The position numbers and the translations under genes are program-made. Source: Bacteroidia bacterium (lineage in GTDB: Bacteria > Bacteroidota > Bacteroidia > M30B66). Taken from it: a DNA stretch of 39,744 bases. The stretch lies in the NCBI GenBank assembly GCA_019695235.1, contig JAIBAI010000027.1:1-39744 (forward strand). The letters run 5' to 3'. The first letter of the stretch is position 1, and each line of letters starts with the position of its first letter. A model generated the notes under the pieces. It did no database searches. It worked only from the letters and a program-made list of their open reading frames with translations, and had not been told where the DNA came from. Positions 10,474 to 27,041 of this stretch are shown here, piece after piece.

Positions 10474-11798
10474 TATTTTGATTTTTTGACTAATTTACGA
10501 CCAATGCTGTAATAAGTGAACCCGGCTTTTTTTATTTGGTCGGAGGTGTAAAGATTCCGGCCATCAAAAATCACTTTCTGCCCCATTTGTTTGTACATCT
10601 GGTCGAAATCAGGATTTCTGAAGGCAGCCCATTCAGTGCAAATCAGGAGGGCATCAGCACCTTCAAGGGCTTCATATTGCGTAGCTGCATAGTTGATTTT
10701 TTTACCATACAACTTTTTTACATTGTTCATGGCTTCCGGGTCAAATGCAACAACCTGTGCCCCTCCTTCAAGTAACTCATCAATCATATACAGGGCAGGC
10801 GCTTCACGGATGTCATCCGTATCCGGCTTAAACGAAAGCCCCCATACGGCAATTTTTTTCCCCTCCAGCTTATTGCTGAAAAACTTCTTCAATCGAGGCA
10901 TCAGAATAGTCTTCTGTCGCTCGTTGATTTGCATCACAGATTCTAATATTTTAAACTCATATCCGGCATCAGAGGCCGACTTCACGAGTGCTTTCACATC
11001 CTTAGGGAAACAACTGCCGCCATAGCCAATGCCCGGAAAGAGGAATCTTTTGCCTATGCGTTGATCAGAACCAATGCCTATTCGTACCAGGTCAACGTCA
11101 GCACCCAACAGCTCACAAAGATTTGCCACCTCGTTCATAAACGAAATTTTGGTAGCTAAAAATGAATTGGCAGCGTATTTGGTCAACTCAGCCGAGCGCT
11201 CATCCATAAACAAAATAGGATTGCCCTGGCGTACAAAGGGCAGGTACAGCTCCTCCATCATCTTTCTGGCTCTTGTTGATGTAGTACCAACCACAACCCG
11301 ATCGGGCTTCATGAAATCTTCAACGGCGTAACCTTCACGTAGGAATTCGGGGTTTGAAACCACATCGAACTCAGCAGTAGCATTGGCCGCAATTGCCTTG
11401 TGTACCTTCTCGGCAGTACCAACCGGTACGGTACTTTTATCAATAATTACCTTGTATTCGGTATTTATCAGATGACCTAATTGCTCAGCAACGCCTAAAA
11501 TATAGCTCAAATCAGCCGAACCATCCTCACCGGGAGGGGTTGGGAGGGCTAAGAAAATCAGTTGTGACTGGCCAACTGCCTCTTTTAAATCAGTTGTAAA
11601 TTTTAACCTTTTTTGTTTGATATTCCGGTCAAAAATTACATCTAACTGGGGTTCAAAAATGGTAAGTGTACCTTTTCGGAGTTTGGTAATTTTTTCCTGG
11701 TCAATATCAACGCAAATCACATGGTTGCCCGACTCCGCCAGGCAGGTACCTGTTACCAGCCCAACATACCCTGTTCCGATTACTGCAATGTTCTTCAT
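10473..11798 (-). CDS. ugd: UDP-glucose 6-dehydrogenase
   Basis: Ugd oxidises UDP-glucose twice to UDP-glucuronate with NAD. The 441-residue protein has the N-terminal motif [12 protein letters not shown] (residues 6-17), KSTVPVGT (121-128), SNPEFLREG, the lysine of [12 protein letters not shown] (Lys207) and the catalytic GGSCFPKD (Cys263). The C-terminal UDP-binding part has [16 protein letters not shown]. Its product is the substrate of Uxs, which is encoded immediately downstream with a 1-base overlap. The start overlaps the wbpE stop by 4 bases (ATGA). Confidence 0.95.
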
Positions 11799-12931
11799 TT
11801 GCCTGTGTTAAAAAATTCAAGTACGGTTTGAATGATATGTGCCAGTTGGTCGTCCTGCATTTCGGTATGCATGGGTAAAGAAATCACCCGCCGGCAAAGG
11901 TCTTCTGTTACAGGAAAATCACCCTCACGATACCTGCTGTCGAGATATGCTTTCTGCATGTGCAATGGTACCGGATAATAAATCATCGCCGGAACTGCTT
12001 TGCTTTCAAGAAATTCTTTCATTTGATCACGCTTGCTGCCATCAGTCAGCAAAGTGTATTGGTGAAACACATGGCTTGACCAGGGGGCACGCACAGGTAC
12101 GGTTAAGCCTTGAATACCTGAAAATGCCTGGTCGTAAACATCTGCCAGGCGCTGTCTTGACGCAGCATAACTATCTAACTCCCTGAGCTTTACAGTTAAA
12201 ATAGCTGCCTGCAAGGTATCTAGCCTTGAGTTAACGCCTACCTCATCATGATAATAACGAACCCGCTGGCCATGATTGGCAATCATGCGTATTTTTTGTG
12301 CTAATTCGTCATCATTTGTAAAAAGGGCACCTCCGTCTCCGTAGCATCCTAAGTTTTTCGATGGAAAGAAAGATGTAGCCCCAATGGTGCCGATGGTTCC
12401 TGCTTTTTTACGGTTGCCGTTGGCATAAATATAATCTGCTCCGATAGCCTGTGCAGTATCTTCAATCAGATGAATACCGTATTTCTTTGCAATAGCTTCA
12501 AGCTGTTCCATCTTACAGCATTGGCCGAACAGGTGCACCGGTACAATGGCTTTTGTTTTATCTGTGATTGCCTTTTCAACGGCTACAGGGTCAATTGTAA
12601 AAGTTTCAGGGTCAACATCTACCAATACTGGTTTCAAGCCAAGCAAGGCAATGACCTCTGCTGTGGCCACATAGGTAAAGCTGGCCGTAATAACTTCATC
12701 TCCGGGTTTTAAGCCCAATGCCATCATGGCTATCTGGAGCGCATCCGTTCCGTTGGCACAGGGTATTACATGCTTCACCGAAAGATAGGTTTCTAAGTTC
12801 TGCTGAAACGTCTTTACTTGTGGGCCTTGTATAAATGCTGTGCTATCAATAACTTCCTGAATGGCCTTATCAATTTCAGGTTTTATCTTCCTGTATTGTG
12901 CCTTCAGGTCTACCATCTGTATTGGGTTCAT
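11795..12931 (-). CDS. wbpE: PLP-dependent aminotransferase, DegT/DnrJ/EryC1 family (WbpE)
   Basis: WbpE transfers an amino group, from glutamate in the family, to C3 of the UDP-3-keto-GlcNAcA made by WbpB. The 378-residue protein has the family start MVDLKAQY, the CANGTDAL phosphate-binding region (58-65), EDTAQAIGA with the PLP-binding Asp158, and the PLP lysine in FFPSKNLG (Lys192). NHGQ and the GVNSRLDTLQAA region complete the signature. It is the first gene of the ten-gene operon. Upstream, the minus-strand bases at 12958-12951 read TAACTTCG, one mismatch from TAnnTTTG, and no good -33 box was seen, so the operon promoter is not firmly located. Confidence 0.9.
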   Translation of the reverse strand: MNPIQMVDLKAQYRKIKPEIDKAIQEVIDSTAFIQGPQVKTFQQNLETYLSVKHVIPCANGTDALQIAMMALGLKPGDEVITASFTYVATAEVIALLGLKPVLVDVDPETFTIDPVAVEKAITDKTKAIVPVHLFGQCCKMEQLEAIAKKYGIHLIEDTAQAIGADYIYANGNRKKAGTIGTIGATSFFPSKNLGCYGDGGALFTNDDELAQKIRMIANHGQRVRYYHDEVGVNSRLDTLQAAILTVKLRELDSYAASRQRLADVYDQAFSGIQGLTVPVRAPWSSHVFHQYTLLTDGSKRDQMKEFLESKAVPAMIYYPVPLHMQKAYLDSRYREGDFPVTEDLCRRVISLPMHTEMQDDQLAHIIQTVLEFFNTGK

Positions 12932-18785: not shown

Positions 18786-19565
18786 ATGGAAAAATTGACC
18801 GATAAATACTTTAACACATATCTATCATTAATTGATGTGAATATCCAAAAATGCTTTAATGACCTACAAGAAACAGAATGGAATCTTGCTAATTTTAAAT
18901 ATTTTACGGCTGTTTCAGTGATGTCATCTTCAAGAATAGAAGGCGAGCAATTGGAAATAGATAGCTATGTAAAGCATAAAGTATTGAACGTAGAATATTT
19001 GCCCAATTTAACTGAAAAACCAAATGACTTATACAAGGCATACGAATTTGCAAGAGATCATAAATTAACCATTGAAAATCTTTCAGAGGCACATGCCATT
19101 GCAACAATTCATTTATTGCCTGAAGCACAAAGAGGGAACATAAGAACGGGCAATATGTTGATTATGGAGCAGCACACCAACCGGATTCAATATGAAGCAG
19201 CTAATGCAGAAGTTGTAAAACAAGCGTATCAATTATTTTGGAAGGAGCTGCATGAACTTCTTACAAAAAATTTAACCATTGAAGAGGTTTTTTATTATGC
19301 GGCGTTCATCCATTTGGTATTTGTAAAGATTCATCCTTTTAACGATGGTAATGGAAGAACAGGAAGGCTTCTTGAAAAATGGTTTTTAGCAACCATGCTT
19401 GGAGAAAAAGCATGGTTTATAGCTAGCGAAAATTATTATTATCAAAACATAACAAGCTATTACAATAATTTGGCACGAGTTGGCTTATTCTTTGGTGAAT
19501 TGAACTATGAGAAAGGACTTCCCTTTCTACAAATGTTGCCCAATGCACTCATTGTTAAGAAATAA
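18786..19565 (+). CDS. Fic-domain protein adenylyltransferase (class II-like)
   Basis: Fic proteins usually transfer AMP from ATP to a Ser, Thr or Tyr of a target protein. The 259-residue protein has the complete catalytic motif HPFNDGNGRTGR at residues 183-194 (His183; Asp188 and Arg194 are the other key residues). Near the N-terminus SSRIEG (48-53) fits the inhibitory-helix motif [S/T]xxxE[G/N], with Glu52 expected to block the ATP pocket. That makes it a self-inhibited class II-type Fic protein. A conserved E-x-Q-RGNIR segment (113-120) is also typical. There is no C-terminal winged-helix domain. No antitoxin-like partner is adjacent. It is the first gene of the accessory island and more AT-rich than lpdA. 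Targets are unknown. Confidence 0.9.
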   Translation: MEKLTDKYFNTYLSLIDVNIQKCFNDLQETEWNLANFKYFTAVSVMSSSRIEGEQLEIDSYVKHKVLNVEYLPNLTEKPNDLYKAYEFARDHKLTIENLSEAHAIATIHLLPEAQRGNIRTGNMLIMEQHTNRIQYEAANAEVVKQAYQLFWKELHELLTKNLTIEEVFYYAAFIHLVFVKIHPFNDGNGRTGRLLEKWFLATMLGEKAWFIASENYYYQNITSYYNNLARVGLFFGELNYEKGLPFLQMLPNALIVKK

Positions 19566-19776
19566 ACGAATTGGCTATTTTCACACATTCATTACTATCG
19601 TTCGGCTTGGTTTTGTCGTTTCTTATGCTGAGCTTGCCAAAGAAAAATTTTTGAAAGTTTACTATCTGCTTGACTACTACAGGAACATGGCACCATGAAT
19701 TTTGCTATCTTTGAGCTGCAAAATGGGTTTTTAGAAGGCCTGACGCTGGCTGTGTAGGACGACCTCACATCAAAGA
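19566..19776 (+). repeat. Intergenic repeat copy A
   Basis: The core at 19681-19745 matches copy B (21440-21504) at 61 of 65 positions. Homology to B extends upstream through the TTTCTTATGCTGAGC segment (near 19619). The core contains ATTTTGC and GCAAAAT as inverted 7-mers separated by 12 bases. The -7-like box TATCTTTG (19706-19713) lies in that loop. The Crp/Fnr gene starts 31 bases after the core. Confidence 0.8.
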
Positions 19777-20343
19777 ATGGAACGACAAGAATATTTCAAA
19801 CTATTTCATGATATCGGCACGGCTGACTATAACTTGCTGACCAAAAACTTGAAAACAAAAAACTTTAAAAAGGGAGACTTCATTACTGTTGCAGGGCAAA
19901 CACAACAAGAACTTTACTTTGTAAAAAGCGGTGTGCAAATGTCATTCTTTGACGCAGACAACAAAACACATATAATTGCATTTACCTATCCGCCGAACTT
20001 GTGTGCCATTCCGGAATCGTTTTCATTTCAAATTCCGTCAAAATACTTTCTGACTTGCCTTACAGACAGCGAATTGGAATACATTACTTTTGACCAATTA
20101 CAAAAACTATTTGACCAATCGCAACAAATTGAGCGACTTTTCAGACGAATGACAGAAGCGATCTTAGCAGGTATGATTAACCGACACATTGAATTGCAAA
20201 GTATGACGATTGAAGAACGTTACAAAACGTTCTGTCAACGTAGTCGGCATTTGCTTCGACTTGTGCCACACAAATACATTGCTTCCTATTTGGGTATTGA
20301 CCCTACGAATTTCAGCAAACTGTTTAATACAGTAAAATTCTAA
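19777..20343 (+). CDS. Crp/Fnr-family transcriptional regulator
   Basis: A 188-residue protein with an N-terminal cyclic-nucleotide-binding-type beta-barrel (residues ~20-115; KKGDFITVAGQ and LYFVKSGVQMSFF are typical), a long dimerisation helix, and a short C-terminal helix-turn-helix (~165-185: IASYLGIDPTNFSKL). This is the layout of Bacteroidota Crp/Fnr regulators of about 190 residues. There are no Cys residues placed for an iron-sulfur cluster, so an Fnr-type oxygen sensor is unlikely; the ligand is unknown. The hydrolase gene starts 66 bases downstream on the same strand, with no intergenic repeat between them. The two may form one unit, with the regulator acting on the hydrolase gene. 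Confidence 0.85.
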   Translation: MERQEYFKLFHDIGTADYNLLTKNLKTKNFKKGDFITVAGQTQQELYFVKSGVQMSFFDADNKTHIIAFTYPPNLCAIPESFSFQIPSKYFLTCLTDSELEYITFDQLQKLFDQSQQIERLFRRMTEAILAGMINRHIELQSMTIEERYKTFCQRSRHLLRLVPHKYIASYLGIDPTNFSKLFNTVKF

Positions 20344-20409
20344 TGTTTGTATAGACCAACTTTTGTTTTCCGGATAGTAAGGAACTTTGCCGTATAAAGT
20401 TTAAAAAAT

Positions 20410-21309
20410 ATGGCGAATCATTGGCTTGACAAATCAGAGTATCCGTTTACATCAAACTATTTTGACATCAACGGTCACAAGTTACATTACATTGACGAGG
20501 GAAAAGGCGAAACAATTTTGTTTGTTCACGGAACACCTTCGTGGAGTTTTGATTATCGCAAGGTAATAAAAACACTATTAAAGAACTACAGGTGTGTTGC
20601 AATTGACCATATCGGTTTTGGACTTTCCGACAAACCAGAGCATTACGATTACTCAACCCAAAATCATAGCAAAACGATTGAAAAATTTGTGCTTGAAAAA
20701 AACTTAGAAAACATCACACTTGTTGTTCACGATTTTGGTGCTGCAATCGGACTAAACTTTGCAATGCAATATCCTGAAAAAATAAAACGTTTGGTTATTC
20801 TCAACTCTTGGTTATGGAGCAGCAAAACCGACCCTGACTTTATTAAGTTAAGCAAGATTTTGAAAAGCCCTTTGTTGCCTTTCTTATATCGTTATCTAAA
20901 CTTTTCGCCCAAATTTATTTTGCCTAAATCGTTTGGCGACAGCAAAATTTCAAAGAACTTATTAAAGCAATACACGAAACCTTTTGCAGACAAGACCCAA
21001 AGAAACGGAACATTGGCATTTATTAAATCGTTGCTTAACGACCAAGATTGGTTTGAACAGCTTTGGAACAAAAGACAAACTATTTCAAACAAGCCGACAT
21101 TGTTCGTTTGGGGAATGAAAGACCCCGTAATTAAACCACATTATTTGGACAAATTTGTTTCGGGTTTTACAAATTCAAAGACAATCAGACTTGAAACAAG
21201 TGGTCATTTTCCACAGGAAGAACAAGCAGAAGCAGTAACAAAATCCATATTTGCCTTCCTAGCAAACAAGAAAAACCACAACTACCATAAAAAAACAACA
21301 GCGCAGTGA
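20410..21309 (+). CDS. Alpha/beta hydrolase, haloalkane dehalogenase-like
   Basis: A 299-residue alpha/beta-hydrolase. The oxyanion motif HGTPSWS is at residues 40-46. The nucleophile elbow VVHDFGAAIG makes Asp108 the nucleophile, as in haloalkane dehalogenases and epoxide hydrolases. The acid is probably Asp238 (FVWGMKDPVI) and the base His266 (SGHFPQEE). A helical cap lies between ~135 and 215. The residue after the nucleophile is Phe109, not the halide-binding Trp of characterised dehalogenases, and HGTP replaces the HGNP with the second halide ligand. True dehalogenase activity is therefore uncertain; ester or epoxide hydrolysis is possible. It follows the Crp/Fnr gene and precedes repeat copy B. 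Confidence 0.8.
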   Translation: MANHWLDKSEYPFTSNYFDINGHKLHYIDEGKGETILFVHGTPSWSFDYRKVIKTLLKNYRCVAIDHIGFGLSDKPEHYDYSTQNHSKTIEKFVLEKNLENITLVVHDFGAAIGLNFAMQYPEKIKRLVILNSWLWSSKTDPDFIKLSKILKSPLLPFLYRYLNFSPKFILPKSFGDSKISKNLLKQYTKPFADKTQRNGTLAFIKSLLNDQDWFEQLWNKRQTISNKPTLFVWGMKDPVIKPHYLDKFVSGFTNSKTIRLETSGHFPQEEQAEAVTKSIFAFLANKKNHNYHKKTTAQ

Positions 21310-21339
21310 AATGGCGCTTAAATTAGATTCAATCCAATT

Positions 21340-21518
21340 TTGTGGATGGTTTTTTTCGAAAAATGTGTAGTCAGACAGGTTTCTTATGCTGAGCGTGTCG
21401 CTTAAAGTTGTGAAAGTTTAAAACCTACCTGACCAGAAAAGGAACACAGCAACATGAATTTTGCTATCTTTGAGCTGCAAATTGGGTTTTTAGAAGGCCT
21501 GACGTTTGTACCAATACC
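21340..21518 (+). repeat. Intergenic repeat copy B
   Basis: The core at 21440-21504 is nearly identical to copy A. Upstream, the segment with TTTCTTATGCTGAGCGTGTC and AAAGTTTAAAACCTACCTGA resembles the right half of copies C and D. A TATCTTTG box is at 21465-21472, 46 bases before the ATG of the membrane protein gene. Confidence 0.8.
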
Positions 21519-22022
21519 ATGCCAAGAATTTCGCCTCCATATCCGGAAAAATATATGCCGACAATAAAAGGCATATTTATATTGACCTTTTCTGCAATTA
21601 TTTTTGGAGGTTTAGCGGGGATTATTGTGTTTTCAACTAAAACAAATTATGACCTTTTTGAGATAATTGTAATGTATGGTTTTGCTATTGTGTTCTCAAT
21701 GTTTTTTTTTATTAGCATATATTACATTTTAACAATTAAAATTGTGTATATCAACCCATTCATAGGCCTGACCATTCGATACCCACTTATTTTCAGAAAG
21801 CTGGAAATAGCATTTAAAGACTTATCAAATACAAGCGAACAACTTCTTTTAATTAAAAATAAAGAAGACTATGAGCCAAAAGCCGACATCGTTTACAGCG
21901 GTAAAAGGTTGATAATATTTCTTGACAACAACAGAAATATCGAAATAAATTCATTTATGACAGATGACTTTTATACACTTAAAGACTATATTGTAGCGCA
22001 AAATATACCATTGCGAAGGTAG
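21519..22022 (+). CDS. Small membrane protein of unknown function, two transmembrane segments
   Basis: I do not recognise a named family for this 167-residue protein. Two hydrophobic segments are clear (residues ~17-38 and ~46-73), separated by a short loop with TKTNYDL. The rest (~75-167) is a soluble, strand-rich domain with IRYPLIF, IVYSGKRLIIFLDN and a final helix. Two TM segments followed by such a domain resemble bacterial PH-like (YdbS-type) membrane proteins; this is only a resemblance. An in-frame ATG at 21555 (MPTIKGIF) is an alternative start that keeps both TM segments. The gene stands alone between repeat copies B and C, as a cassette-like unit. Confidence 0.7.
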   Translation: MPRISPPYPEKYMPTIKGIFILTFSAIIFGGLAGIIVFSTKTNYDLFEIIVMYGFAIVFSMFFFISIYYILTIKIVYINPFIGLTIRYPLIFRKLEIAFKDLSNTSEQLLLIKNKEDYEPKADIVYSGKRLIIFLDNNRNIEINSFMTDDFYTLKDYIVAQNIPLRR

Positions 22023-22043
22023 GTAAGACGCCAACATAAATGA

Positions 22044-22247
22044 AATAAACCATAGCCCAGCGGAGTTCATTTAGCTTTGCTGCTAATCCGTAATAGGCTT
22101 TTTCTGTTGACAAGTGCGAGCAACCCGGTTTCTCATACAATTTCACCGCAATAGGGAGTTTAATACCTGCCCGACTACCAAGAAACATAGCAATAATAAT
22201 TTTGCTATTTTTGAGGTGTAAAATGGGTTTTTAGATGGATTGATGGT
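22044..22247 (+). repeat. Intergenic repeat copy C with inverted arms
   Basis: It is homologous to copy D over about 190 bp. A left arm (22046-22077, with ATAAACC and AGCGGAGTTCATTTAG) is imperfectly complementary to a right arm (22138-22165, with TTTCACCGCAATAGGGAGTTTA), so a long imperfect hairpin is possible. The conserved core at 22181-22240 follows, with TATTTTTG at 22206-22213, 34 bases before the CDF gene. The left arm begins just after the preceding gene's stop. Confidence 0.7.
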
Positions 22248-23150
22248 ATGGGAAAATTAAATGACGATCATAAAGCAGAAGTGACCAACGAGCAGACAGC
22301 CATAAGGACAGCATATTTCAGCATTGTAGGTAATACTGCTTTAGCAACAATCAAAGGCCTTGCTGGATTTTTTGGCAATTCATACGCATTGATAGCAGAC
22401 GCAATCGAATCCACAACTGACATCCTTTCCTCTATTTTAGTTTTACTTGGTCTTAAATATGCATACCGACCTGCCGACAAGAATCACCCATACGGGCACG
22501 GACGTATTGAACCCTTAATAACATTTATCGTTGTCGGATTTTTAATTACATCAGCCACAATCATTGCTTACGAAAGCATACAAAATATTGGGACACCTCA
22601 CGAACTACCGAAAGTATGGACACTTTATGTTCTGGGTGCAATTATCGTTTGGAAAGAAATTTCATATCAAATTGTGCTTAAAAAAAGTAAACAGACAAAT
22701 AGTTCATCATTAAAAGCTGACGCTTGGCATCATCGCAGTGATGCAATTACATCAATTACTGCTTTTATTGGCATTTCGATAGCACTAATTTTGGGAAAGG
22801 GTTACGAAACAGCAGACGACTGGGCTGCATTATTTGCTTCGGGTTTTATTCTTTATAACAGCTACCAAATTTTCAGACCGGCATTGGGTGAAATAATGGA
22901 CGAACATACCTATGACGACCTTGAGCAGGAAATTAGGAATATTGCGGTAACCGTAAATGGTGTACTTGACACCGAAAAGTGTTTTATAAGAAAAGCAGGG
23001 TTACAATATCACATTGACCTACATGCAACGGTTGACAGTAACTTGACTGTTAAACAAGGTCACGATATTGCACACAAACTTAAAGATACTTTAAGACAAG
23101 AATTGCCACAAATCGGCCATGTTCTAATACATATAGAACCCAACGAATGA
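22248..23150 (+). CDS. Cation diffusion facilitator (CDF) metal/proton antiporter
   Basis: CDF proteins export divalent metals (Zn, Fe, Mn, Co) across the inner membrane in exchange for protons. The 300-residue protein has about six TM segments and a C-terminal cytoplasmic domain (~215-298). The family motif HPYGHGRIEPL is at 80-90. The TM5 metal site is HHRSD (His161, Asp165). In TM2 the site reads IESTTD, so Glu54 occupies the position of the usual first Asp, with Asp58 conserved. The metal specificity cannot be read from this. It is a single-gene unit between repeat copies C and D. Confidence 0.92.
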   Translation: MGKLNDDHKAEVTNEQTAIRTAYFSIVGNTALATIKGLAGFFGNSYALIADAIESTTDILSSILVLLGLKYAYRPADKNHPYGHGRIEPLITFIVVGFLITSATIIAYESIQNIGTPHELPKVWTLYVLGAIIVWKEISYQIVLKKSKQTNSSSLKADAWHHRSDAITSITAFIGISIALILGKGYETADDWAALFASGFILYNSYQIFRPALGEIMDEHTYDDLEQEIRNIAVTVNGVLDTEKCFIRKAGLQYHIDLHATVDSNLTVKQGHDIAHKLKDTLRQELPQIGHVLIHIEPNE

Positions 23151-23170
23151 AAAGAAAAGCAACAAATAAC

Positions 23171-23400
23171 ATATAAGCCCTAAACCATATCCGAGCGGAG
23201 CGAATTTAGCTTCGCCACTATTTCTTTGTCGGCTGATTTTGTTGACAAATGTGCAGCCAGCCCGGTATCTCATACTAAGTTCACCGCAATATGGTTTTAA
23301 TACTTGCCAGGCTACCAAAGGAAAATAACAACTTGAATTTTGCTATTTTTGAGCTGCAAAATGGGTTTTCTGCCAGGGTATAAGGTTAGCACCATAATAG
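23171..23400 (+). repeat. Intergenic repeat copy D with inverted arms
   Basis: The left arm (23181-23210) contains AAACCATAT, GCGGAG and AATTTAG. The right arm (23273-23300) contains the complement as CTAAGTT, CACCGC and ATATGGTTT. Between them GGCTG...TTTGT-TG-ACAAA...CAGCC forms a second, inner hairpin. The core (23319-23370) follows with TATTTTTG at 23344-23351, 72 bases before the GNAT start codon. Order and orientation are as in copy C. Confidence 0.75.
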
Positions 23401-23423
23401 GCGGCACAGCAAATTGAAACAGA

Positions 23424-23954
23424 ATGATAGAACAGCTAACAATAAGACAAGAAACACCAGACGATTTTAAAGAAACTTTTGAAGTCAATCATGGCGCTTT
23501 CGGTCAGGACAAGGAAGCAAAACTGGTTGATGCTTTAAGACGCAATTCGACAGTATTTATTCCTGAACTTTCGCTTGTAGCAATTGGCAACAATAAAATT
23601 GTTGGACATATCCTAATTACAAAACTCAGAATTAAAGACAACAACGGAAACATGCATGAAAGTTTAGGCCTTGCACCAATGGCAGTTAGACCTGAATTTC
23701 AAAAAATTGGAATTGGCGGACAACTAATTATACAAGGACTTAAAATAGCCAAAGAATTAGGCTTTAAATCAGTAATCGTATTAGGACACGAACAGTATTA
23801 CCCAAAATTTGGATTTGAACCAGCCGACAAGTGGAATATTAAGGCACCATTTGACGTTCCTTCTCATTTTTTCATGGCAATTGAGCTAGTAAAAGACGGT
23901 CTGAAGAATATATCGGGAATAGTTATTTACCCAAAAGAATTCGAAACAGTATGA
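23424..23954 (+). CDS. GNAT-family N-acetyltransferase (YhbS-like)
   Basis: A 176-residue GNAT enzyme that should transfer an acetyl group from acetyl-CoA to an amine of a small molecule or protein. The acetyl-CoA-binding motif A is clear: LGLAPMAVRPEFQKIGIGGQLI (Q-x-x-G-x-G at ~95-100). A later VIVLGHEQYYPKFGFEPA segment gives the common C-terminal strand and YxxFGF motif. The pattern is that of YhbS-type acetyltransferases, whose substrates vary. It is the last plus-strand unit of the array and converges on the pentapeptide gene. GNAT genes are frequent passengers of cassette arrays, which fits the context. Confidence 0.88.
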   Translation: MIEQLTIRQETPDDFKETFEVNHGAFGQDKEAKLVDALRRNSTVFIPELSLVAIGNNKIVGHILITKLRIKDNNGNMHESLGLAPMAVRPEFQKIGIGGQLIIQGLKIAKELGFKSVIVLGHEQYYPKFGFEPADKWNIKAPFDVPSHFFMAIELVKDGLKNISGIVIYPKEFETV

Positions 23955-24083
23955 CGTAATAAAACGCCTCCGAAGGAGTCGAACAAAACCACAATCAAGT
24001 GATGCCAAAGGCATAGTCCGCAAAACTCATTGTTAGTCGCTTTGATACAAATTTCTTTCTGTTTTATATTTCAATTCTTGGCG
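23955..24083. repeat. Hairpin-rich spacer between convergent GNAT and pentapeptide genes
   Basis: Two short hairpins are visible: CTCC-GAA-GGAG (about 23971-23981) and ATGCC-AAA-GGCAT (about 24003-24015). They are followed by AGTCCGC, AAAACTCATT and GTTAGTCGC. The AGTCCGC...AAAACTCATT part recurs in the spacer at 26328-26350. The end GTTAGTC is one base from the integron core-site consensus GTTRRRY. The hairpins could also act as weak terminators. Confidence 0.45.
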
Positions 24084-24647
24084 TCATTTTTCTATGTAAA
24101 TATCATATTTATCCAAAAGCCCCGAAACGCCTGAAAAAGAAAATTTTGCTTTCTTTATTCTGTTTGTCTCTGGGTTAATGGAATAATTGTAAGAAGTACG
24201 AAAGTCGGCTTTTTCAAGGGTCGTGTGGTCAAAAACTGCTTGTATCAAATTGCAGTTGTCAAACACGGAACTTGTCAAGTCCGCTTCTGCAAAGTCAACT
24301 TCTTGTAAAGTTGAATTTTTGAAAACGGTCTTTTTGATTTTTGTCTTGTAAAAGGAAGAATGGTTGAGTTGGCAACCGTCAAATGAAAAAGACAGTCCAA
24401 ACTCGTTACAAGTGTCAAAGCGAAGTCCCAACATTTTGCAGTCTTTGAATTTTGCGTCCCGAAAAGCTGTCTTGTTGAGCTTCGTTAAACTGAAATTACA
24501 ATCGTTAAATGAGCAATCTATAAACCTAAATCCAGATAGGTCGGAGTCTGCAAAGTTGCAAGCGTTGAAAATACAGTTTTCGTATTCTCCTTTTGTTACT
24601 GTATCGTTTCTGTCTAAAGTTTTGTCTTGAATGTATGTCTTTGTCAT
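24084..24647 (-). CDS. Pentapeptide-repeat protein
   Basis: A 187-residue protein made almost entirely of A(D/N)LXX-type pentapeptides, which fold into a right-handed quadrilateral beta-helix. The repeats run from about residue 25 to 160, for example CNFAD, SDLSG, CSFND, CNFSL, VDFAE, ADLTS, CNLIQ and ADFRT. Length and composition recall Qnr/McbG-type proteins that mimic DNA and protect gyrase, but nothing specific identifies that role and no drug resistance is claimed. There is no signal peptide, so a cytoplasmic location is likely. It sits on the minus strand as a single gene behind the CCGTTAGCGGCAA boundary sequence. Confidence 0.9.
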   Translation of the reverse strand: MTKTYIQDKTLDRNDTVTKGEYENCIFNACNFADSDLSGFRFIDCSFNDCNFSLTKLNKTAFRDAKFKDCKMLGLRFDTCNEFGLSFSFDGCQLNHSSFYKTKIKKTVFKNSTLQEVDFAEADLTSSVFDNCNLIQAVFDHTTLEKADFRTSYNYSINPETNRIKKAKFSFSGVSGLLDKYDIYIEK

Positions 24648-24671
24648 CTGGAATGGTGTTTTGTTGCATTT

Positions 24672-24806
24672 GCCGCTAACGGTTTACAACATGGTCAGTA
24701 TGGGATTGCCGGTGATTTCTAATCAGGTTACGTGAGAAATTGAATTGGGCTGCAAGCTTTCGCAAACCACTGGAATCCCTATTTGCCATATTGTGAGTTA
24801 TCGGTT
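24672..24806. repeat. attC-like imperfect palindrome (~135 bp)
   Basis: The left arm at 24672-24710 (GCCGCTAACGG, ACAACATGG, GGGATT) is imperfectly complementary to the right arm at 24772-24806 (AATCCC, CCATATTGT, GTTATCGG). They enclose an inner TTTCT/AGAAA hairpin. On the minus strand it begins with CCGATAAC just after the T9SS gene stop and ends in CCGTTAGCGG 23 bases before the pentapeptide ATG. This is the layout of an integron attC site: AAC- and GTT-containing ends, a long imperfect stem, and a position after a gene. The core bases deviate from the strict RYYYAAC/GTTRRRY consensus. Confidence 0.5.
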
Positions 24807-24810
24807 GGTA

Positions 24811-26274
24811 TTATTCAATTATTAATCTATCCATTTTTAAAATTTTTACATTGTCAACGATTTTTAAGAAATAAACACCTGGATTTAAGTCTGAAATGTT
24901 AATCATGGAATTGTCTATCTCCAATTTCTTTGTTTTTTGTAATCTCCCTTGAATATCGTAAACGAGAATTTGCAAACCCTGATAATTGATGTTAGAAATT
25001 TTCGCAACTACTTGATTCTTAGCTGGATTAGGATAAATCATAATGTCCTTTGAAGCTGGAAAATCAGAAATTTCAGTTACTGTAATAGGATTACCCCATG
25101 AAACCCCAGCCTTTTTGTAATAAACCAATTTTCGTTTTGCACCACCTAAACAAAAAGCTTGCGTGCAAGAATAATACGGCCCTCCAAGTCCTTTAATATA
25201 TTTTTCATTCGTTAAACATCCGTCAACAATTACCATCTGCCAACAGGAATCACCATTAAATCGATACCTTTCATAACCGCTTGGATTAAGTTTTGACAAA
25301 GGAGTCTCATTTGTCATGAAAAAATTAAAAGTTTCATTTTCGTTAATGATAGGTTCTCCCGGAAGCTTATCAAACTGTGGATCAGGTTTTATTGTTCTTG
25401 TTAAGGTATCGTTATAATATTTAAATTCAGACCTATCAGTGAAAGTTGTAAAAGTGCTTTGCGTTCTGGAATAACGATAAACAATCGAATCAGAATAATC
25501 TGTACGTTCTAAGTATTTATATATTGCCTTATTAATTAAAGATGAACCATACCCATCCCCATACCAACAACTGGATTCATCCAAAACGTGTAATTCATCG
25601 CCTACTTGAAAATCATTCACCTCAAACCAAGTTAAGTTGTTTACGCCAACCTTTGGGCTTGATAGTCCAATTAAATGATATTCTTCTAAAATTTCATATT
25701 GATAATCTGCATTAAAATTCGGGAAAAAGTAAAAGTTCATTGTTGTGATAAATCCGTGAAATTTACTTATTTGTATATTCATATAATTTATTTCAAGATC
25801 AAATTGATTCATACTTTTATCGTAAGCTTGAAATTTAATTGTTTTTACTGAATCAGTGATACCTAAGAATGTCAATGTATCATGACTTATTAATGTAGCC
25901 TCGATTTTAAGTGAATCATTTAACGCAAAAGCAATCCACTTTTCTCCCAAACTTGCGTTAACTTTTAAGGTTATAGTATCTCCCGTTTTATTAATGAACT
26001 TATTTAGACCATCGTCTTCCATTGTCACACTTTTTCCAATCCACGAAGCTGCAACTGGCGAAAAACAATCGTAACCAAATTGCTGAATAGTAGCAAAAGG
26101 AAATAATGTTGAATCACTCTGGTGCTTTACAGAATCAATCCGAATACATCTGATGTTGCCGTGCCCATTACCAAAAAAAGCTATCCGATTTGAATTTATA
26201 GTTTGATATTCCTGTCCAAACGTACTTATTACTGAAATCAACACGAAAATCAGAGAAATTTCTATTCTTCTCAT
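24811..26274 (-). CDS. Secreted protein of unknown function with T9SS C-terminal sorting domain
   Basis: A 487-residue protein with a signal peptide (MRRIEISLIFVLISVISTFG, cleavage near residue 20-22). It has a long central region without a recognised domain and a C-terminal type A sorting domain of about 75 residues (IMIYPNPAKNQVV, VYDIQGR, NPGVYFLKI). Export by Sec and then T9SS is expected. The central part has several Cys and many short strands, with no catalytic motif that I can identify. It is AT-rich compared with the operons outside the island. On the minus strand it is bounded upstream by CCGTTAGCGGCAA and downstream by the attC-like palindrome, so the unit has the form of a single-gene cassette of about 1.65 kb. 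Confidence 0.8.
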   Translation of the reverse strand: MRRIEISLIFVLISVISTFGQEYQTINSNRIAFFGNGHGNIRCIRIDSVKHQSDSTLFPFATIQQFGYDCFSPVAASWIGKSVTMEDDGLNKFINKTGDTITLKVNASLGEKWIAFALNDSLKIEATLISHDTLTFLGITDSVKTIKFQAYDKSMNQFDLEINYMNIQISKFHGFITTMNFYFFPNFNADYQYEILEEYHLIGLSSPKVGVNNLTWFEVNDFQVGDELHVLDESSCWYGDGYGSSLINKAIYKYLERTDYSDSIVYRYSRTQSTFTTFTDRSEFKYYNDTLTRTIKPDPQFDKLPGEPIINENETFNFFMTNETPLSKLNPSGYERYRFNGDSCWQMVIVDGCLTNEKYIKGLGGPYYSCTQAFCLGGAKRKLVYYKKAGVSWGNPITVTEISDFPASKDIMIYPNPAKNQVVAKISNINYQGLQILVYDIQGRLQKTKKLEIDNSMINISDLNPGVYFLKIVDNVKILKMDRLIIE

Positions 26275-26313
26275 ATCATTTTTAGCTTATCATTGGTTTA
26301 TCGTGCGACCTTC

Positions 26314-26326
26314 TTGCCGCTAACGG
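26314..26326 (-). repeat. Gene-boundary 13-mer also found at 24670-24682
   Basis: The plus-strand bases TTGCCGCTAACGG occur at 26314-26326 and 24670-24682. In both places they lie a short distance upstream of a minus-strand start codon (40 and 23 bases). On the coding strand they read CCGTTAGCGGCAA. A 13-base match alone could be chance in 40 kb; the matching positions are what make it notable. Confidence 0.45.
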
Positions 26327-26336
26327 CAGTCCGCCC

Positions 26337-26391
26337 ATAAAACTCATTTTAGAATTCAAAAATAGCAAAATTCATGATGCTATGTTCTTTT
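26337..26391 (-). repeat. Intergenic repeat copy E (core only, inverted)
   Basis: On the minus strand it reads AGAACATAGCATCATG, then AATTTTGCTATTTTTGA, then AAAATGAGTTTT. It therefore matches the core of copies A-D in the opposite orientation. TATTTTTG (26364-26357) lies about 82 bases upstream of the minus-strand T9SS gene. As with the other copies, the core faces the gene it precedes. Confidence 0.7.
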
Positions 26392-26465
26392 AGCTTCCAT
26401 GAAAGAGGGCTTGATTTTGCCAGCCAATTTACGGGTGTGGCAAAAAATGGTTCTTTGTCGAACTC

Positions 26466-26905
26466 CTAAATAAGTCGAAAAAGCCAGAATAAGAAGGCTA
26501 TGTTTCCCCAGGTTTCAGTCGGTTTTTTCAAAATATTGAAGATGCTACGCAGAATAAACGCATTGAAGCTAAGTCCGACTTCGACATAGGCTCTTTTGAT
26601 GCTTCTTACAATAACACGTCCTCTTCATCGGGTGTTTTAGGTGCATGCGTTTAATGCTTGACAAGTCTTGCATGCGGTTGTTGTAAAGTGTCTCACGTGG
26701 ATAGGTGAAGATTTCTTTCTTCCGGGTGTGTTTCGTTCTTTTTTGTACCAGTTTCCATTGGTGGTAGATTTATTACCCTGCGGACAAGTATATTCATTTG
26801 ATTGCTTGTTAAAATCAATTTCAGATTTGTTAAATGCCGGTTTAGGAGCCATTGAAGCTGAGGATATATCCGGAATTGCAACCTACACATTCAGCAAAAT
26901 AAAAG
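26466..26905 (-). pseudogene. Decayed IS1182-family transposase remnant
   Basis: The minus strand encodes transposase fragments in different frames. From about 26852 down to 26637, MAPKPAFNKSEIDFNKQ, YTCPQGN and ACKTCQALNACT match the linker and Cys-containing region of IS1182-type DDE transposases. After an in-frame stop, 26634-26466 reads VEVGLSFNAFILRSIFNIL, the typical C-terminal helix of the same family. The N-terminal catalytic part is missing, and frameshifts and a stop separate the pieces, so it cannot be functional. No terminal inverted repeats were recognised. Confidence 0.6.
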
Positions 26906-27041
26906 TGTAAACTTCAGAAAAACGAAACCTTTAGCAGCAATTTAGGCAACAAACACATGGGCGCAGCTTTCTTTGGCAAAATTTTGACAATTCGATGACA
27001 ATAGGCCCATTTTATAGCCCTGATGGCATACCAACAGGTAG

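Follow-up and report, generated by a model that had tools for sequence, protein, structure and literature searches.

A probable relic integron-type cassette array in a Bacteroidia genome, with IS1182-family ends at its junctions

In the integrons of proteobacteria, insertion sequences (ISs) of the IS1111-attC group, which carry a DEDD-type transposase, insert in attC sites. IS1272, a member of the IS1182 family, targets palindromes and replaces inverted repeats on insertion (PMC5678879). According to surveys, integrons are almost lacking in Bacteroidetes (PMC9024848); Bacteroidota have been mentioned among the phyla with integrons, with varying prevalence (PMC9668308), and an integron recombinase codirectional with its cassettes is also found in Treponema (PMC3607928). 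Here we analyse a 39,744-nt stretch of DNA from a Bacteroidia bacterium (GCA_019695235.1, contig JAIBAI010000027.1; hereafter ‘the window’), in which unrelated genes are separated by five homologous repeats, copies A to E (Table 1). The host genome is G000 (2.83 Mb); C and L numbers denote contigs and fetched loci of the genomes designated G. We conclude that the locus is probably a relic integron-type cassette array, the junctions of which have been colonised by attC-targeting ISs of the IS1182 family.

A sequence-only reading of the window had proposed five homologous intergenic cores, each pointing toward the gene it precedes, as possible parts of a mobile gene-collecting system, integron-like or new. 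The five cores are present where they had been placed, with BLAST E-values of 1e-7 to 1e-27 that exclude a chance resemblance, and every core has the proposed orientation. Over 64 nt, the other four copies are 92, 81, 77 and 81% identical to copy B; A and B agree at 59/64 positions, slightly below the 61/65 first given. Copies C and D are, as proposed, related beyond the core, with 73% identity over 84 nt farther upstream. When the whole genome was first searched at the DNA level, all core matches lay within the window contig, and a sequence model of the five copies then detected two weaker copies elsewhere in G000 (C29:8987-9079, L162, and C34:79868-79939, L163). Across 394 other genomes of the class, that model detected no strong copy, Rfam gave no match for the repeats, and the core pattern had zero matches in the genome contigs, viral contigs and plasmids searched. 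Both further copies are IS1182-type right ends, and the one on C34 directly precedes a small open reading frame.

The identity of the repeats emerged from weak matches to the five-copy model in other genomes, which have a common end, GTTTTTAGACnGACTGACG, followed by TTAGCGG-like sequence. In G011 (L185) and G155 (L175) this end occurs in inverted pairs 1.68 kb apart that enclose a transposase, and both transposases score above the curated cut-off of the IS1182 family (NF033551). A right-end profile, built from eight IS1182 right ends, all from other Bacteroidia genomes, and searched against 80 kb of G000, gave as its six best matches A (4.7e-5), B (1.8e-4), E (1.9e-4), the copies on C34 and C29, and C (5.2e-3); all six reach the tip or come close to it, A, B and E matching up to the final profile position and C up to position 65 of 70. 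Next to copy E, moreover, and in the same orientation lies the remnant of an IS1182 transposase (tblastn 2e-15; 35.6 bits, below the family cut-off), the sole IS1182 transposase match in G000; none was found at A to D. Because the right-end profile matches A, B, E and C, and because an IS1182 fossil lies beside E, we conclude that the repeats are IS ends, the cores of A to E being right ends of the IS1182 type.

Intact relatives show where such ISs insert. We collected IS1182 copies from 28 genomes of the class, joined their flanks where both ends could be placed, and compared the joined flanks with a sequence-only attC profile. Removal of the IS restores a full attC site in 7/10 elements (E-values 6e-34 for L201, 2e-29 for L223, 5e-29 for L209, 1.3e-28 for L207, 3.7e-22 for L203, 3.8e-22 for L213 and 1.4e-8 for L185); the remaining three comprise a partial match (L204, 0.0055), a flank pair that is site-like by eye (L184) and an element outside attC (L175). 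The insertion point lies between the L' side and G|TTA of R'. We conclude that an attC-targeting IS1182 group exists. No paper joining IS1182 to attC was found, as judged from titles and counts in a literature mostly without subscription journals. As complete miniature inverted-repeat transposable elements, copies A to E were rejected for want of left ends, though G108 has a transposase-free element of 263 nt bounded by both IS1182 ends (L184:2149-2411), apparently inside an attC-like site.

The window also contains a genuine attC-like site, which lies at 24668-24804 in the spacer 24648-24810 behind the type IX secretion system (T9SS) gene; the spacer folds as CCGATAAC..arm..loop..arm..TAAACC GTTAGCGGCAA. 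The site exhibits the attC hallmark, AAC...GTT in R''/R' with complementary arms: its own-arm duplex has an energy of -36.2 kcal/mol, compared with a shuffled mean of -18.1, and 0/300 shuffles were as good. It is weak by the site model described below, and is the one site which that model finds in G000. TTAGCGGCAA follows both copy E and the attC-like site, and the T9SS unit extends from TTAGCGGCAA after copy E through to the site. The 13-mer CCGTTAGCGGCAA at the R' end of the site recurs at copy E, immediately ahead of the T9SS gene, and a search with it led to a G041 contig that carries several similarly built sites; as a genome-wide marker the 13-mer was rejected, its matches being mostly chance matches in coding sequence. 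A further attC-like match at 26806-26942, within the decayed transposase region, is weak (7.3 bits) and probably due to chance.

Two window genes have relatives next to integron-like recombinases of other genomes. With its flanks, the Crp/Fnr gene matches the first cassette next to the G084 recombinase at 80% identity in DNA and 82% in protein; G084 belongs to another family and has no fewer than 12 attC-like sites. The Fic gene resembles the gene directly behind the G003 recombinase at 42% identity. The proposal of an integron-like gene-collecting system thus survives in part: the attC-like site, the Crp/Fnr and Fic relatives beside recombinases, and a class-wide system speak for it, and the repeats are not its recombination sites. 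No integrase had been seen in the window, which is indeed devoid of any recombinase, and the suggested search for a recombinase near the array in the full genome yielded only XerC and XerD. Since G000 has only these two, the window appears to be a relic array without integrase and, lacking an integron-type recombinase anywhere in the genome, would no longer be able to shuffle. The genomes analysed are mostly metagenome-assembled, and the absence of an integrase from G000 rests on an estimated completeness of 100%.

The class-wide system was defined as follows. Through an anchored inverted-repeat scan, 13 seed sites were obtained in eight genomes; the majority lie in contigs with a tyrosine recombinase. 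The aligned seeds show compensatory changes at 16/19 pairs, and the named structure performs better than slid and shuffled controls, in a test that is partly circular because most seeds were chosen for complementarity. The resulting covariance model, R1, detects sites in 94/119 genomes of the class at E-values up to 0.1, many below 1e-17, and in 136/296 genomes of the phylum at 1e-6. Twenty-one fetched loci, a non-random sample because each was fetched on account of a recombinase or a site, contain 124 sites, with practically one orientation within each array. AAC and GTT are most often 120-122 nt apart, and GTTANNN is the usual form of R', the canonical GTTRRRY being present in only 6/118 sites. 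Where a locus has a recombinase as well as sites, the two are codirectional in all but three cases, which are divergent, and the recombinase mostly has its nearest site 0.3-3 kb away. The recombinase of L043 aligns to XerA and IntI4 (PDB 2a3v); its residues 290-305 (15) stand opposite residues 185-242 (57) of IntI4, indicating that the IntI-specific insertion (~42 residues, patch region) is missing. The TIGR02249 model stayed below its cut-off in all 100 genomes; TIGR02249 alone was rejected as an integrase marker, because Xer proteins trigger matches in nearly all genomes. Our literature searches on Bacteroidota integrons found no description of such a system. These sites and recombinases look integron-like, and recombination between the sites is predicted. 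On balance, though less firmly than for the window itself, we favour a widespread and little-recognised integron-type system of Bacteroidota, with structure-conserved attC-like sites of ~121 nt, co-oriented arrays and recombinases without the IntI-specific insertion, parasitised by a crossover-inserting IS1182 group that leaves outward promoters before cassettes; the window would be a parasitised, integrase-less remnant of it.

Between recombinase and first cassette, seven loci (L102, L109, L108, L060, L057, L054 and L103) have an attI-like sequence, roughly GGCGGGTATAAACTA|GTTA. Window positions 23376-23392, at copy D (GGGTATAAGG|TTAGCACC), resemble this sequence, a likeness that an IS origin of the repeats leaves unexplained. 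As attI-like sites, A to E were rejected once IS1182 copies with both ends appeared.

TAnnTTTG is the -7 promoter motif of Bacteroidota. It is present in all five window cores and in both other G000 copies, and attC-like loops are enriched in it (32/113 vs. 6.8 expected), with no enrichment on the reverse strand. IS ends or attC loops may serve as promoters for the next gene. In array loci including L103, L102, L098 and L107, the loop motif is directed toward the following cassette, its commonest position being 62-71 nt ahead of R'. The heptamer GTTGACA is likewise enriched in attC loops (12/118 vs. 0.6 expected). The upstream halves common to C and D (22033-22150 and 23168-23280) contain a small hairpin and GTTGACA.

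According to the history that we propose, the unrelated genes of the window are cassettes, and the units of B, C and D would formerly have been cassettes too, a status suggested for the membrane-protein, CDF and GNAT units by their arrangement. The IS would insert at the G|TT crossover, each core being the right (transposase 3'-side) end and ending there, with the tip of D lost. The transposase would have disappeared everywhere except for the fossil beside copy E, the attC sites of units A to D would have been lost or overwritten after IS insertion, and the outward TAnnTTTG in each IS end would drive the next gene. Several observations weigh against this history. No attC half-site is recognisable beside A to D by site model or arm pairing; a left-end profile gave no significant match, and no left IS ends are found in the window; and copy D matches the right-end profile in its core only. 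In addition, TT is absent after A and C (D and E continue with TTAGC), the IS end does not account for the ~100-150 nt in the upstream part of C and D, and GNAT relatives in named genomes lie in ordinary, not cassette-like, contexts.

Some of these facts would also fit genes that were never integron cassettes and were moved by the IS ends themselves, through one-ended transposition or as circles formed via directly repeated ends: A to D flank single genes as direct repeats and retain no attC beside them, and replacement of inverted repeats is on record for an IS1182 member, IS1272 (PMC5678879). We consider this unlikely, however, given that relatives of the Crp/Fnr and Fic genes are the first genes beside integron-like recombinases and that attC-type R' sequence bounds the T9SS and pentapeptide units. 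Somewhat less probable still is that A to E constitute a second, divergent attC-like family of a Bacteroidota integron, with a promoter in each loop. They do lie between a stop codon and the next gene, like attC sites; the A/B homology ends sharply at G and then gives way to divergence; TTAGC follows D and E; and the core's TTTTGCTATNTTTGA, when sought in 850 kb of other DNA, turns up solely within two attC-like sites. The terminal arms of A to E, however, pair no better than shuffles or cross-pairings, the site model gives no match to any of the five, and in other genomes this sequence forms the end of IS1182 elements. A to E were therefore rejected as attC sites for lack of signal in the own- vs. 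cross-arm test, and the sequence-only reading of the repeats as structured recombination sites falls with them. That the repeats are ordinary dispersed promoter-like elements beside stable accessory genes that were never cassettes is very improbable: they carry a -7 promoter motif and have two copies elsewhere in G000, but five of the seven copies are crowded within 6.8 kb, the sequence is that of IS1182 ends, and an attC-like site lies at the same locus.

For the relic array that we favour, the gene units are listed in Table 1. The earlier list of genes was correct save for one that it overlooked, the pentapeptide-repeat gene between the GNAT and T9SS genes, which has no repeat core. The convergent spacer between the GNAT and pentapeptide genes (23955-24083) contains CGACTAACAATGAG and a hairpin, perhaps a truncated attC, to which the attC site model gives no score.

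Table 1. Coordinates of repeats, gene units and sites in the window
Feature	Position	Strand	Remarks
Copy A, IS1182 right end	19676..19745	+	tip G at 19745; core 19680-19743
Copy B, IS1182 right end	21437..21504	+	tip G at 21504; core 21439-21502
Copy C, ~213-nt repeat	22033..22245	+	core 22180-22243; 22177-22245 (final 69 nt) matches IS1182 right end; D has the upstream part in common
Copy D, repeat with IS1182-right-end core	23168..23391	+	core 23318-23381; IS-end match 23316-23373; tip replaced by GGGTATAAGG, then TTAGCACC
Copy E, IS1182 right end	26324..26394	-	tip at 26324; core 26390-26339
attC-like site	24668..24804	-	R'' CCGATAAC, R' GTTAGCGG; 25.2 bits, E 1.5e-4 in window
TTAGCGGCAA cassette start / attC R' half	26314..26323	-	directly after IS tip of copy E
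Decayed IS1182 transposase fragment	26529..26915	-	internal stops; same strand as copy E, upstream of E
Fic/DOC-family gene	18786..19565	+	relative (42% identity) in L053, directly behind integron-like recombinase of G003
Crp/Fnr-type gene	19777..20343	+	DNA 19767-20390 80% identical to first cassette of G084 array (L103:5128-5751)
Alpha/beta hydrolase gene	20410..21309	+	second gene in Crp/Fnr unit
Orphan gene unit (membrane protein per sequence-only reading)	21519..22022	+	no Pfam match
CDF cation efflux transporter gene unit	22248..23150	+	
GNAT acetyltransferase gene unit	23424..23954	+	
Pentapeptide-repeat gene	24084..24647	-	unit start is TTAGCGGCAAATG after attC-like site
T9SS C-terminal-signal protein gene	24811..26274	-	cassette between copy E and attC-like site

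If the arrays recombine, a major phylum would have its own gene-collecting platform, contrary to surveys (PMC9024848), and current tools may largely miss such arrays because both the site boxes and the integrase differ from the canonical ones. The attC-specific IS1182 provides a marker for such arrays, and may offer silent cassettes a route to promoters. The G084 array (L103) already carries cassette genes resembling lincosamide nucleotidyltransferase and MerT (10856-11626 and 12237-12836).

The system resembles integrons and clusters of attC sites lacking integron-integrases (CALINs) in having co-oriented arrays of mostly single genes, folded attC-like sites and, in related arrays, a tyrosine recombinase at the array end. 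It differs from canonical integrons in that R' is mostly GTTANNN and rarely GTTRRRY, and in that the recombinase is without the IntI-specific insertion and is usually codirectional with the cassettes. The ISs resemble the IS1182 family in the NF033551 transposase of autonomous relatives, which scores above cut-off, in the lack of an obvious long target duplication and in the choice of a structured target. In contrast to IS1272, however, the target here is the attC R' crossover, and the site is split rather than replaced: the joined flanks give the whole attC back. In contrast to intact IS1182 elements, the window keeps only right ends and a fossil. With the IS1111-attC elements the group has attC insertion in common, but its transposase belongs to a different family, the DDE transposases of IS1182.

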